Source: Spirosoma spitsbergense DSM 19989
GTDB taxonomy: Bacteria; Bacteroidota; Bacteroidia; Cytophagales; Spirosomataceae
DNA: 64,000 nt
Reading direction: 5' to 3'
NCBI RefSeq assembly: GCF_000374085.1
Contig: NZ_KB893614.1
Coordinates: 184 to 64,183, forward strand
Shown: piece after piece, positions 21,902 through 51,144 of the stretch
Layout of the letters: each line of letters opens with the position of its first letter
Numbering within the stretch: position 1 is the stretch's first letter
Program-made: the position numbers and the translations under genes
Notes under the pieces: model-generated
Told to the model about the DNA's origin: nothing
Databases searched by the model: none
The model's input: the letters and a program-made list of their open reading frames with translations, nothing else

Positions 21902-24900
21902 CTACTTCGTATTCATGGCCTGCCCCGCCTTTACCACTTTCATCACGCCGTTCATAATCCGCCAGTGACCGGGGAAGGTACAAACGAACGGGTAGTCGCC
22001 GGGAGTGTTGGGAGCTGTAAATTTAAGCCGGTACGTCTGGTCAGGATTCACCAAAGGCGTAGCCGCTATAATCTGGGGAATAGAGGGCACGTAGTTCCTG
22101 TCCGCACCGTCTTTGGCCGTAATTAGTTTGTCGGCAGCTGCTCCGATGATTTCCATCGATTTAGGTTTACCAACCACCAGGTTATGCTGCATGGCATCGG
22201 GGTTTTCAAGCACAATTTCAATGGTCTTACCCGCCGTAACGGTAAATTCCTTTTTGTCGTAGCGCATTTCTTCCCGCACGGTTTTCAATCGGATAACCTC
22301 TACGTTTGGATCAACAGGTTCTTCCTTTGTCAGCCCCCAAACTTCGTACAGGCGGTTTAACCGTTCGCGGTTATCGGCAGACACGCTACCGTTCAGGCTG
22401 GCCAGGAACGACCTGTCGGCCTGTGGCACCGTTGCCTTCTGCTTCATGTTCCACCCTTCCGACACGCCTTTCACTACCGCTTCACTCTCCGCCGGACTTA
22501 GTTTCTGCGTTTGCCGAAGCAGGGCAACCACCGAGTCGATGGGAGCCACTGATGCGTAACTGCGCGTAGCGCGTTCCAGCGTGTAGGCACTCAGGCTCTG
22601 CGGGGCGCGGTAAATTAAGGTTTGCGTAGCATTGTTGTTCTGCTCGTTGCTTTCCGCAATTTTATTCTCCCGGTCGAGCATGACCGATATGATGTAATCG
22701 CCGGACTGCTCGAACAGTACGCCCATATCGCCCACCCACGGGCCGTTGTTCGATTTTGTAATCGTAACGGTTTCTCCGGGCTTGATACCCGTGTCATGCG
22801 TGACGCTGATAAAGTCGATTTTAGAGGCATCGGCCATTCCCTTCGGTCCTTCAACCCGCACCGACATCGGAATGGGTGTTCCTGCCGGAATCGCAGCACC
22901 GCCCACGTTAGTCACGTCGACGAAAATCTGCGCCCGTTCCCGAACCGCCGGAGAATTAGGTGTTGTACGAACAGCCCCCACAATCAGGTCAGGCAAGTTA
23001 CCCATAGAAGGGGTAGAGGCCGTAGAAGCTGTCATGACAGGTGCTGATGTCTTAGCCATATCCGCATGATTGTGCGCTGACATATCCTGACTCGCCTTCG
23101 CCGGTGCATTCACGGCCAGTTGGTTTACGTATGTTTTCAACAATCGTCCGTTCTGGCTCGTCAGCATACTGGCAAAGGCATCGGGTAACCACCGGTCATT
23201 TACTTCCTTCGCTCCGGCTGTTGTAGTAAGACGGGCCAGCACTGCGGCATCGGCTGCGGGATTCGATGGTAATTTTGATAAGGCCAGTATGGTATTCAGC
23301 ACCACCAGCGGTTCTTTATCGTTCAGCATGTCCGCTTTCAGCAACGTACCGGATACTTCGCTATTAGTCGGCATCACCTGTATCGCCGTTTTACGAACGG
23401 CCGATGCCGGATGTTTCAATGCCTGATTTACGGCCATTGACGCATTCTGGTCGGAGCCATCCAATACGTTTAACCCATTCAATATCCACAGCGCGTGGAT
23501 AGCGGCCGGGTTGTTACCAATCTCATCCAGCGACTGGTCATTGACCAGGGCAATCAGTTGCGGCACTACGTCTTTGTTATTTCGTTCGATAAGCAACCGC
23601 TGGGCAGTCATACGCCAGAACATATTCGTGTTTTTCAGCGCGGCCACTAACTCTTCCGGACGATCTTTACTCAGGGCCATAGGCGTATAGCTGGGTGCTC
23701 CTTTGTAGCCCACGCGGTAAATACGGCCATGTGTGAAATCGCGCAGGGGCGTTTCGTAAGCATTTCCCGAACCATTTGTAGCTCCTTTCGGTGTTGGGTT
23801 GTGCTGAATAATGTAGCTATACCAGTCAACTACCCAAACGGCTCCATCCGGGCCTACTTCGGCAAACACGGGCGCGAACCACTCATCGGCACCAGCCATC
23901 AGGTTAAACCCAACGGCATCCGAAAAATCGGTTCCGCTCTTCTGCATCACGTTCTGGTGTACAATGTGGCCCGTTGGCTCCGACACGAACGCAATCTGGT
24001 TCCAGTATTTTTTCGGGAAAGCGCGGGCGGTGTAGAAGTTATGCCCGGCTGCCGCCGTAAACCCCCCAAATACGTCCACCTGCCGCACTTTTTCGGTGAT
24101 GGGTTTCATGTCTTTGTGGGTATCCGTACTGCGGCTGCCATTTTCCCGGATGTGGGGTGCCCCGTTAAAGTACCGGTTTGGAATGGCCATGTACCAGCCG
24201 TGCGAGTTGTTGGCCGTCGAACCAAAAATATCTCCCTTTTCGGTAAAGCCTAAACCCCATGTGTTGTTGGACGTTCCCGTTACGTATTCGAGTTGGGAGC
24301 CATCCGGTTTGAACCGGAAAAAGCCCTGGCTGAATTTTACGCTGTCCTGACCAATTTTCCCCTTGAAACCAGAATAGCCAACACTGCCCCAAATCCAGTT
24401 GTCGAAACCATAATGCAGGTTGCTCGGGCCGGCGTGGGTATCGAACGTACCGAAACCGGTGAAAACAACTTTCTTCACATCGGCCTTATCGTCACCGTTG
24501 GTATCCTGCAAAAACAGCATGTGGGGCGCCTGCGATACGTACAACCCCCCATTACCAAAGGCCATGCCGGTAGGAATGCTCAGTCCTTCGGCGAAGTTGG
24601 TAAACTTGTCGGCCTTCCCATCTTTATCCGTGTCTTCGCAAATAACGATATAATCAGACCCACCTTCGGGTTTGCGCTCGTTGGGGTAATCTTTCGTCAC
24701 TAAGGCGTAGAGTCGTCCGCGCTCATCCCAGGCCATGGCAATGGGGTGCATCACGTTTGGCTCATGCGCAAACAAATCGAGCGTGAAATCAACCGGCACC
24801 TGAATGTGCTTCATAGACTCCTCCGGCGATAATGGTTTCTGCTCCATCTGGGGACCAGGCCGCTTTTCGTAGTTAGGAAGCAGAGGAGCTTCCTGATACG

Positions 24901-25711
24901 CGAATGGCTGCGGGTTCAGGTCGTCATGCAGTTTTTTTACATTATCGCCCACAGCCCACATAATACCACGCTCCAGCAGTTGCTGAAAACCAGGCTGCAA
25001 CCACGTGCGCTCATCGTGCCCGTAGGCCGTATAAAACACGCGGCCTTTGCCGTACTGCCGGGTCCAGGTGTACGGTTCCTCTTTGATGCCGGGTCGGTTG
25101 GCCGCTGCCATGTCTTTTTCCTGGTCGGCTTTAATTTCGCGAACGGCCAGCACATTATTATCTGCCTGTAAATGGCTGTGCAAGTACGTTTCATCGTAGG
25201 CTTTGAACGAGGGCAGACCTGCTACGATTGGATTAGCAGGCTGCGTAAAGCGGGTTTGGATGGTGTCCATCCGATGCCGCCAAAACTGACCACCCACTAC
25301 CTTATCGACGTACTCCGGAGAGTTACGGAAGCAGAACGATGCGCAATGCACCGGAATGATGCCGTGCCCCGACGATACGTAATCGAGCAACGCCTTTTCC
25401 TGCGGCTTGCCAATGCTATCCCAGTTAGCATAGATCAGCAAACCATCATACTTGTTCAGGTTTTCGGTATTGAGGTCTTCCAGCTTATCGGTATAGGTAA
25501 AGTTGATACCCTTAACCCCCAGAGCCGCCATGATTTCCGGCACCCGCTCAATGGGCTTGTGGTGGCCGTTGTCGCCCAGAAACAGAATCTCCGTCCGGCG
25601 GGGTCGGCTGGTATTGGATACATCCTGACGGATGGCCGTTTGGGTTGTCGACTGGCGGGCGCACTGAGTGAGCACCACAACCAATCCAAACGCGGTAAGT
25701 AGTTTTTTCAT
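21902..25711 (-). CDS. ThuA - beta-propeller dehydrogenase - HEAT - CARDB - cupredoxin fusion lipoprotein
   Basis: A 1269-residue exported protein. A leader ends in LTQCAR (possible acylated Cys17). Domains in order: ThuA-like (about 40-256; HCASFCFRN, GKGRVFYTAYGHD); a membrane-bound-dehydrogenase beta-propeller as in the PVC-type haem protein family (about 305-670; MAWDERGRLYAL, GLSIPTGMAFGNGGLYV); HEAT-like helices (about 685-865); a CARDB-like beta domain (about 905-1035); and a C-terminal type 1 copper domain (about 1135-1262) with apparent ligands H1176, C1244, H1249 and M1253. No CxxCH haem motif is present, so the cupredoxin seems to take the place of the usual cytochrome c. It probably oxidises a sugar or polyol and passes electrons to copper; the substrate is inferred only from the neighbouring sugar genes. 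Confidence 0.9.
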   Translation of the reverse strand: MKKLLTAFGLVVVLTQCARQSTTQTAIRQDVSNTSRPRRTEILFLGDNGHHKPIERVPEIMAALGVKGINFTYTDKLEDLNTENLNKYDGLLIYANWDSIGKPQEKALLDYVSSGHGIIPVHCASFCFRNSPEYVDKVVGGQFWRHRMDTIQTRFTQPANPIVAGLPSFKAYDETYLHSHLQADNNVLAVREIKADQEKDMAAANRPGIKEEPYTWTRQYGKGRVFYTAYGHDERTWLQPGFQQLLERGIMWAVGDNVKKLHDDLNPQPFAYQEAPLLPNYEKRPGPQMEQKPLSPEESMKHIQVPVDFTLDLFAHEPNVMHPIAMAWDERGRLYALVTKDYPNERKPEGGSDYIVICEDTDKDGKADKFTNFAEGLSIPTGMAFGNGGLYVSQAPHMLFLQDTNGDDKADVKKVVFTGFGTFDTHAGPSNLHYGFDNWIWGSVGYSGFKGKIGQDSVKFSQGFFRFKPDGSQLEYVTGTSNNTWGLGFTEKGDIFGSTANNSHGWYMAIPNRYFNGAPHIRENGSRSTDTHKDMKPITEKVRQVDVFGGFTAAAGHNFYTARAFPKKYWNQIAFVSEPTGHIVHQNVMQKSGTDFSDAVGFNLMAGADEWFAPVFAEVGPDGAVWVVDWYSYIIQHNPTPKGATNGSGNAYETPLRDFTHGRIYRVGYKGAPSYTPMALSKDRPEELVAALKNTNMFWRMTAQRLLIERNNKDVVPQLIALVNDQSLDEIGNNPAAIHALWILNGLNVLDGSDQNASMAVNQALKHPASAVRKTAIQVMPTNSEVSGTLLKADMLNDKEPLVVLNTILALSKLPSNPAADAAVLARLTTTAGAKEVNDRWLPDAFASMLTSQNGRLLKTYVNQLAVNAPAKASQDMSAHNHADMAKTSAPVMTASTASTPSMGNLPDLIVGAVRTTPNSPAVRERAQIFVDVTNVGGAAIPAGTPIPMSVRVEGPKGMADASKIDFISVTHDTGIKPGETVTITKSNNGPWVGDMGVLFEQSGDYIISVMLDRENKIAESNEQNNNATQTLIYRAPQSLSAYTLERATRSYASVAPIDSVVALLRQTQKLSPAESEAVVKGVSEGWNMKQKATVPQADRSFLASLNGSVSADNRERLNRLYEVWGLTKEEPVDPNVEVIRLKTVREEMRYDKKEFTVTAGKTIEIVLENPDAMQHNLVVGKPKSMEIIGAAADKLITAKDGADRNYVPSIPQIIAATPLVNPDQTYRLKFTAPNTPGDYPFVCTFPGHWRIMNGVMKVVKAGQAMNTK

Positions 25712-50690: not shown

Positions 50691-51009
50691 TACCAGGAGC
50701 GGGAGTCGAACCCGCACGGGCTTGTGGCCCACAGGATTTTCTTACCAACTACAACTTTCGCTGCTTACTGCCGAATGCAGTAATTTGTGGTCTGGACTTT
50801 CTCTTCACCATTCACCCCAAACATGTGATTAGGTGCCGCCTGTTAAGTCTCTACACCTTCCGAGAGTTTCCCCAGGGCTTGGCTCGGGATTGCCAGTCAG
50901 CTGTTAACTGATAAGGTTTCCCCGAATTTAAGCGGTTCTACATCGACCGTTTCCAGTCGCGCACTCAACTTTTTAAGTCCGGCGTGTCTACCAATTCCAC
51001 CATCCCGGC
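50691..51009 (-). tRNA. tRNA-Leu (UAA), interrupted by a group I intron
   Basis: On the minus strand, exon 1 (51009 to 50975, 35 nt) gives the acceptor GCCGGGA, D arm and anticodon 5' side ending in CTT; exon 2 (50740 to 50691, 50 nt) begins AAAATCC and carries the long variable arm GGGC/GCCC, the T arm GCGGGTTCGACTCCCGC and acceptor TCCTGGT with discriminator A. Joined they make an 85-nt tRNA with anticodon UAA. CCA is not encoded. The anticodon stem has one C-U mismatch at 28-42, and the acceptor has two G-U pairs. It follows tRNA-Gly. Confidence 0.95.
50741..50974 (-). ncRNA. Group I intron in tRNA-Leu, cyanobacterial-type (IC3-like)
   Basis: A 234-nt intron between U34 and A35 of the anticodon. 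The upstream exon ends in U and the intron's last base is G, as required for group I splicing. Core blocks match the well-known cyanobacterial tRNA-Leu intron: TTCGGGGAAACC, then GGCAATCCCGAGCCAAGCC (P4 pairing TCGGGG/TCCCGA), GGAAGGTGTAGAGACT (guanosine-binding P7 side), AAGTCCAGACC, and GCAGCGAAAGTTGT near the end. No homing endonuclease frame fits in it. It should self-splice with an exogenous guanosine. Confidence 0.93.
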
Positions 51010-51038
51010 ATTCATGACCGTCGAAGCAGTCGTTTACG

Positions 51039-51066
51039 AAAAAAGCACCTGACTCGGTGCCTTTTT
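51039..51066 (-). terminator. Intrinsic terminator between tRNA-Gly and tRNA-Leu
   Basis: On the minus strand, GGCACC/GGTGC stem with a 6-base loop followed by TTTTTT, just after the tRNA-Gly CCA. Either tRNA-Leu has a separate promoter, which I did not find, or read-through supplies it. Confidence 0.75.
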
Positions 51067-51068
51067 CG

Positions 51069-51144
51069 TGGAGCGAAAGACGGGGTTCGAACCCGCGACC
51101 TCGACCTTGGCAAGGTCGCGCTCTACCAGCTGAGCTACTTTCGC
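51069..51144 (-). tRNA. tRNA-Gly (GCC)
   Basis: On the minus strand a 76-nt cloverleaf: acceptor GCGAAAG/CTTTCGC, D arm GCTC/GAGC, anticodon stem CGACC/GGTCG with loop TTGCCAA (anticodon GCC), T arm with GGTTCGAACCC, discriminator T, and an encoded CCA end. It is preceded by a full consensus promoter. Confidence 0.97.

Follow-up and report, generated by a model that had tools for sequence, protein, structure and literature searches.

A group I intron in the tRNA-Leu(UAA) gene of Spirosoma spitsbergense, a probable endonuclease-less member of a homing lineage

The intron of tRNA-Leu(UAA) is the textbook ancient and immobile group I intron of cyanobacteria and plastids, and it has long been debated as either an inheritance from before the plastids or a traveller. 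To our knowledge, cyanobacterial tRNA-Leu introns carry no endonuclease ORFs. Cyanobacteria (Synechocystis, Gloeobacter) also have tRNA-fMet introns, which have a related core but another host tRNA and splice site, and whose endonuclease belongs to a nuclease family other than HNH. Outside this phylum, a tRNA-Leu intron was reportedly described in gammaproteobacteria around 2002. Among the proteobacterial tRNA introns, those of Beggiatoa and Thiomargarita reside in tRNA-Leu(UAA) and tRNA-Arg(UCU) (PMC4853749), two hosts shared with the introns presented here, whereas others are found in tRNA-Arg(CCU) or in tRNA-Ile2, the latter in Acidovorax and Burkholderia (PMC8450103); the available excerpts of these two papers make no mention of Bacteroidota. 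As for phages, group I introns holding an HNH endonuclease, as in some of the introns below, are known but lie in protein genes, where all phage introns observed by 2014 were located despite the many phage tRNA genes, according to a review of that year (PMC3984707). A group I intron database dates from 2025 (PMC11835236). The kind of intron analysed here is thus familiar from other phyla, while none of the titles and abstract openings found in the open-licence literature deals with group I introns in the tRNAs of Bacteroidota or of phages.

The analysed DNA (the window) is a stretch of 64,000 nucleotides of S. spitsbergense DSM 19989 (contig NZ_KB893614.1, positions 184 to 64,183), in which the minus-strand tRNA-Leu(UAA) gene (51009-50691) is interrupted by a group I intron (Table 1). 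It shares with the cyanobacterial intron the host gene, the insertion after U34 and the terminal G. A previous sequence-only reading had placed a 234-nt insert after U34, and its coordinates proved exact to the base: once introns were allowed, ARAGORN recovered the gene as tRNA-Leu (taa), interrupted behind position 35 by an intron of 234 nt. Joined, the exons of 35 and 50 nt give an 85-nt tRNA-Leu, the mature length announced by that reading, and both the U ending exon 1 and the final G of the intron that it named can be read in the sequence, this U being able to pair with a G of the guide (..ACUU/GAGU). A terminal G was present in all 21 family tRNA-Leu introns cut out without requiring it; the later set of 22 was extracted with a pattern that demands it.

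Table 1. Features of the split tRNA-Leu(UAA) locus, in window coordinates; paired cells and pairs changed on both sides refer to the 22 family tRNA-Leu introns.
Feature	Position	Strand	Remarks
tRNA-Leu(UAA) exon 1	50975..51009	(-)	35 nt, ends ..GGACTT, stops after anticodon U34
Group I intron	50741..50974	(-)	234 nt, terminal G at 50741; RF00028 48.7 bits
tRNA-Leu(UAA) exon 2	50691..50740	(-)	50 nt, starts A35 A36; CCA not encoded
tRNA-Gly(GCC)	51069..51144	(-)	directly upstream of tRNA-Leu; marks the locus in sister species
Internal guide GAGU (P1)	50963..50966	(-)	can pair with exon 1 end ACUU; U.G at splice site
P2 hairpin, GAAA loop	50943..50960	(-)	all 7 pairs with changes on both sides; pairing in 96.8% of cells
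P3 5' strand	50930..50935 (3' strand 50836-50841)	(-)	changes on both sides in 4/6 pairs; pairing in 100% of cells
P4 enclosing P5 and its extension	50884..50925 (P4 strands 50920-50925, 50884-50889)	(-)	P4 and P5 100% paired
P6, P6a	50855..50883	(-)	100% of cells paired; P6 invariant; P6a 2/2 pairs change on both sides
P7 5' strand GACU	50846..50849 (3' strand AGUC 50795-50798)	(-)	expected guanosine-binding helix, predicted
P8	50806..50835	(-)	4 pairs with pairing in 100% of cells, 2 of them with changes on both sides; 87.4% in the outer extension
P9 / P9a / P9b	50744..50791 / 50765-50783 / 50751-50764	(-)	95.3 / 90.9 / 100% of cells paired

The covariance check that the sequence-only reading had proposed gave a divided answer, RF00028 matching the intron over its full length (model positions 1-253, E 2e-11) but with 48.7 bits, below the curated cut-off of 50; for this reason a default Rfam run on the window lists two tRNAs and omits the intron. 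Without introns, ARAGORN did not report the split tRNA-Leu in the window either, so that such genes are easily missed. At E ≤ 0.001, the intron is the sole RF00028 match in the whole 7.5-Mb genome. The core pattern AATCCCGAGCCAAG-N{8,38}-AAGGTGYAGAGACT, derived from introns of the same family, has a single match in the window and none in 100 shuffles. Our own model (R1), built from 30 family cores, gives it 151 bits, the window intron being itself one of the 30.

Helices P2-P9 were written down from the window copy and then counted on the 22 tRNA-Leu introns of the family group: 13 helices with 56 pairs were paired in 95.9% of 1220 cells, 36 of these pairs having changed on both sides, and none of 500 shuffles was as good as the observed fold on any of five measures. 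Sliding the partners by 1-3 columns leaves 27-45% paired vs. 95.9%, a comparison in which the structure has an advantage, as it was derived from one of the introns counted. The P3-P8 core is held by compensating changes. In a separate RNAalifold alignment of 30 cores, including eight fMet introns, five of the six P3 pairs changed on both sides. P7, the catalytic helix, is invariant in all 22 introns; since P6 and P7 never vary, their covariation speaks neither for nor against the fold. The P5 extension has 74.7% of cells paired, and the outermost P2 pair is G-A in the window. The loop of P9b is GAAA, and the layout of the P2 and P9b GAAA loops would agree with subgroup IC3. The Anabaena tRNA-Leu intron probably differs from the family introns in its P9 layout.

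A whole-genome tRNA search returned 39 matches, on which ARAGORN identified intact Leu anticodons CAA, UAG, CAG and GAG, with UAA in the split gene alone. Two weak tRNA matches without an ordinary ARAGORN call do not read UAA by eye, and the unbroken tRNA-Leu(UAA) pattern had no match in this genome. As no second UAA-reading tRNA was found, splicing should be essential, although the assembly, rated 100% complete, stands in 237 contigs, so that a further copy could lie in a gap. A dead split gene, with UUA read by other means, is very improbable. This draft state could be held in its favour, together with one mispair in the anticodon stem and the fact that splicing is here a prediction from sequence; yet the unbroken alleles share the mispair, another UAA tRNA-Leu was not found in the genome, TTA codons are in use (110 of the 1089 Leu codons in 23 hand-picked window ORFs) and compensating changes keep the fold across 22 genomes. 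The intron is real and very probably working, in an essential tRNA.

Filled and empty sites coexist within the genus. Among 36 genomes searched with R1, 12 had introns, with a total of 16 matches whose exons, read by eye, belong to tRNA-Leu (seven), tRNA-fMet (seven) and tRNA-Arg(UCU) (two). The tRNA-Leu intron is present in seven genomes, while 27 have an unbroken tRNA-Leu anticodon arm, once each and without mismatch to the pattern; no genome has both, and the two that lack both have a completeness of 82% and 71%. When compared over the 29-nt anticodon arm, 19 of the 27 unbroken genes are identical to the joined exons of the window, and the remaining eight differ at a single exon 1 position that does not adjoin the junction. 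As all 27 directly follow tRNA-Gly(GCC), as does the window gene, the predicted junction occurs as a plain gene at the same locus of sister species. Two near twins (MutS end branches of 0.004 and 0.002) differ in this respect, G079 having the intron with a broken HNH ORF and G152 no tRNA-Leu intron, and their loci align right to the insertion point (95.9% over 434 columns, 86.2% over 848). In a MutS tree of 29 rows (21 of the 22 genomes with the tRNA-Leu intron, G025 having no MutS, and eight hand-picked of the 27 intronless ones), its presence or absence requires at least six changes. Three trees (90/98, 100/99 and 99/85) unite the introns of G038 and of G114, a genome from another genus, whereas MutS pairs G038 with G054 (100/99), a conflict which would fit transfer.

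Between tRNA-Gly and tRNA-Leu, the minus strand of the window holds a hairpin (GCACC..GGTGC) and then a run of six T (51031-51060), which may make tRNA-Leu dependent on a separate promoter or on read-through.

Concerning the family group, RF00028 gave 54 matches in 43 of 200 genomes, 33 genomes having a match above the curated cut-off. Hosts were assigned by eye from the flanking exons because the anticodon given by ARAGORN is not dependable where the intron does not follow U34, fMet being mislabelled as Leu and the CAU-anticodon tRNA as Gln. Twenty-two of the 54 matches lie in tRNA-Leu(UAA) and 14 in fMet; another 12 are in a tRNA with a CAU anticodon, either elongator Met or Ile2, and five in tRNA-Arg(UCU), and one, L084 (26.5 bits), has no host. 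At higher ranks, R1 had matches in 25 genomes out of 291 for the order and in 29 out of 395 for the phylum, searches of more than 40 genomes being run with stricter filters that lose weak matches. The same model, built without cyanobacteria, also detected introns in 14 of the 59 genomes searched from that phylum, and ARAGORN assigned several of these to tRNA-Leu (taa).

A scan of genome contigs, with a pattern that favours introns sharing the P4 and P7 sequences of the window type, yielded at least 116 stretches. To judge by record titles, the 80 listed come from Bacteroidota, Alpha-, Beta- and Gammaproteobacteria, Acidobacteria, Planctomycetota and Actinomycetota, as well as from Omnitrophica, Patescibacteria-type groups, one Lachnospiraceae MAG and one cyanobacterium, and an ARAGORN tRNA spans the core in 72 of the 81 matches from the listed loci. 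Another locus scan gave at least 120 stretches, 80 of them listed. Group I introns of tRNA genes are more widespread than the cyanobacterial textbook case, as has in part been published already.

In L110 and L122, from other Bacteroidota families, the intron is apparently shifted by one base, lying between U33 and U34 of tRNA-Leu(UAA), as judged from the 3' side alone for L122. On many enterobacterial and other plasmids, a stretch is ca. 70% identical to the split tRNA-Leu of the window (1338 records, 1258 of them with at least 80% of the query covered), with no listed gene there in the rows listed. In two of the four records inspected (L586, which is pCTX-M3, and L587 to L589), aac(3)-IId is close by. 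ARAGORN calls a split tRNA on these stretches, Leu in L589 and another anticodon in L586-L588, and the L588 intron groups with alphaproteobacterial tRNA-Leu introns in both viral-inclusive trees.

An HNH ORF occupies the P1 loop in eight of the 22 family tRNA-Leu introns, where this loop measures 503-523 nt; it is 7-14 nt, without ORF, in 11 others and intermediate in L016 (21 nt) and L078 (49 nt), L031 being outside the count. Starting with MARY, five of these ORFs (L062, L067, L073, L074 and L079) stay open for 171-190 codons, two are broken or short (L065, L068) and L026 lacks that ATG. PHROGs HNH families match the L074 ORF (E 7e-30) as well as ORFs of a CAU-tRNA intron (8e-20) and of an Arg intron (2e-29); Pfam is weak on the first (HNH 21.6 bits for a cut-off of 21.4, HNH_3 below its own cut-off) and has no match on the two others. 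Within the tRNA-Leu introns, the HNH ORF reads on across the guide in the direction of P4. The window intron, whose P1 loop is 8 nt, has no intact endonuclease ORF, but it is open in the same frame over 25 codons, reading KKLSARLETVDVEPLKFGETLSVNS, similar to the ends of the relatives' ORFs. This shared frame would fit the loss of the ORF in the window copy; it may also be mere RNA homology, as the HNH ORFs run into the ribozyme core.

Three introns of tRNA-Arg(UCU) of ca. 595 nt (L071, L081 and L082) have an HNH-like ORF on the strand opposite to the tRNA, unlike the tRNA-Leu introns.

The 3'-junction pattern of the tRNA-Leu introns was also found in 93 IMG/VR stretches, near-copies being counted singly. 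In 71 of the 80 listed, ARAGORN calls a tRNA that spans the intron, and in 63 this is Leu(UAA) split at the same site; by hand count, 33 of these 63 introns reach at least 600 nt. Five of the 80 stretches satisfy the strict HNH motif. The viral contigs are up to 310 kb long, and many stretches have at least five other tRNAs. L508 bears, in P1 too, an HNH 46% identical to that of L074, and L404 scores 140.7 bits with R1, inside the family range of 128-153. When the window gene was compared by blastn with phage records, at least 80% of it was covered in two records alone, both a 735-kb uncultured phage, and on one of them ARAGORN called a split tRNA-Leu.

L372, whose ORF is 68% identical to that of L074, adjoins an integrase read as a tyrosine integrase and looks like a host tRNA at the edge of a provirus. 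Of the Aeromonas phage matches labelled tRNA-Leu, the one inspected, L376 (Aeromonas phage avDM4), is a free-standing HNH gene, a relative of the intron ORFs, that overlaps the start of an intact phage tRNA-Leu. A tRNA-like stretch seen by eye in the P6 region of the L502 intron was confirmed neither by ARAGORN nor by Rfam.

Intron cores were placed in a wide tree (101 rows less L163, L002 and L009), in a viral-inclusive tree (105 matches less 18 with a low score or second in their locus) and in a reduced tree, i.e. the latter minus seven long rows, L532 among them. With only 139-143 columns, most forks are unresolved. The 8-10 cyanobacterial tRNA-Leu introns sampled nevertheless form one separate clade (100/99 in the wide tree, 100/100 in the two others), and none of them nests inside the family, plastid introns being outside the tree sample. 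Their core span also differs, with 157-218 nt vs. 146-167 nt in the family. Across several phyla, 16 of the 19 fMet rows group together in the wide tree (100/93). The sequence-only reading had stressed the likeness to the cyanobacterial intron, which stands for the fold and the host site, while the cyanobacterial introns keep to their own clade and the topology shifts with the rows; likewise, the tree of cores that it had called for is stable for this clade but not for the deep relations. The idea of a recent transfer from a cyanobacterium or a plastid is disfavoured and scarcely credible: host site and core motifs are alike and, in the reduced tree, L028, L062 and the window intron stand beside the cyanobacterial clade (90/64, 91/94), but this clade is separate, on a long branch, with no sampled member inside the family.

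Those same placements are compatible with an ancient vertical inheritance, in which the intron would have been in the tRNA-Leu of an early bacterial ancestor, that of cyanobacteria too, with many losses in Bacteroidota. Site and fold are indeed those of the cyanobacterial intron. The wide tree gathers 21 of the 22 family tRNA-Leu introns, plus two odd rows, in a single group, and neither the 22 as one clade (p-AU 0.48) nor the family together with the cyanobacterial tRNA-Leu introns (p-AU 0.388) is rejected; moreover, a tree of the 22 tRNA-Leu cores largely follows genus. Against this count the patchiness within one genus with its 27 unbroken alleles, the HNH ORFs, the viral copies, the G038/G114 conflict with MutS, and the weak rejection of all 58 tRNA-Leu rows as one clade (p-AU 0.015, wide tree), and we regard such a descent as unlikely.

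A third origin, delivery by phages that carry the split tRNA-Leu and hand intron and endonuclease to their hosts, is possible, if on the doubtful side. Besides the 63 viral tRNA-Leu(UAA) genes and the resemblance of L404 and L508 to family members, it can draw on the viral-inclusive tree, where the family group takes in five viral rows and where L532, L561, L460 and L541 are placed together with two further introns and that of the window (97/90), and on the reduced tree, where the family intron L016 joins 15 viral introns (100/97). The L532 group, however, has long branches, inner forks of 91/0 and 84/60 and a program warning, and it dissolves in the reduced tree; L372, placed among the family introns in the viral-inclusive tree, looks like host DNA; IMG/VR contigs can contain host DNA, and the columns are few. 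Because the family group breaks up in the reduced tree, its members being scattered round the base, the family introns are no longer claimed as one clade, even if the family with L372 as a single clade is not rejected (p-AU 0.235). Judging from the trees, a recent cyanobacterial source appears unlikely, whereas it is likely that family introns have to some extent been exchanged with one another and with viruses.

Taken together, the patchy presence in the genus, the HNH ORFs and the viral copies suggest a mobile lineage. Between inheritance and transfer, which the sequence-only reading had left open, they tip towards mobility, while the source is not settled. We consider it highly likely that the window holds a self-splicing intron of a homing lineage whose copy has lost its endonuclease. 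After transcription, the intron of the pre-tRNA would fold into P1-P9; an outside guanosine is predicted to bind at P7 and the RNA to be cut after U34, whereupon the exons would join into the 85-nt tRNA reading UUA. The P1-loop HNH endonuclease of the relatives would be expected to cut unbroken tRNA-Leu genes, whose repair would copy the intron in. The HNH ORF of the window copy would most likely have been lost. Splicing activity, use of guanosine, homing and ORF loss are each inferred. At least two of the eight HNH ORFs are broken or short; a largely genus-following tree would also result from a long residence with losses, and the scatter beside the cyanobacterial clade in the reduced tree would also fit old common descent.

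More tentatively, and at somewhat less than an even chance, the tRNA-Leu(UAA) intron of Bacteroidota and phages could be a live homing element, in which the HNH nested in P1 reads into the ribozyme core and cuts the anticodon region of tRNA-Leu, phage-borne split genes carrying the intron between hosts and the window representing a stage after endonuclease loss. If true, a homing tRNA-Leu intron common to Bacteroidota and phages would be of wider interest. With seven filled and 27 empty loci, near twins, copies with and without the endonuclease ORF and viral relatives, gain, loss and homing are directly testable.

Elsewhere in the window, the minus strand (21902-25711) encodes a 1269-aa protein with a match to a PVC-type haem-binding CxxCH domain and an azurin-like end that scores below the model cut-off.
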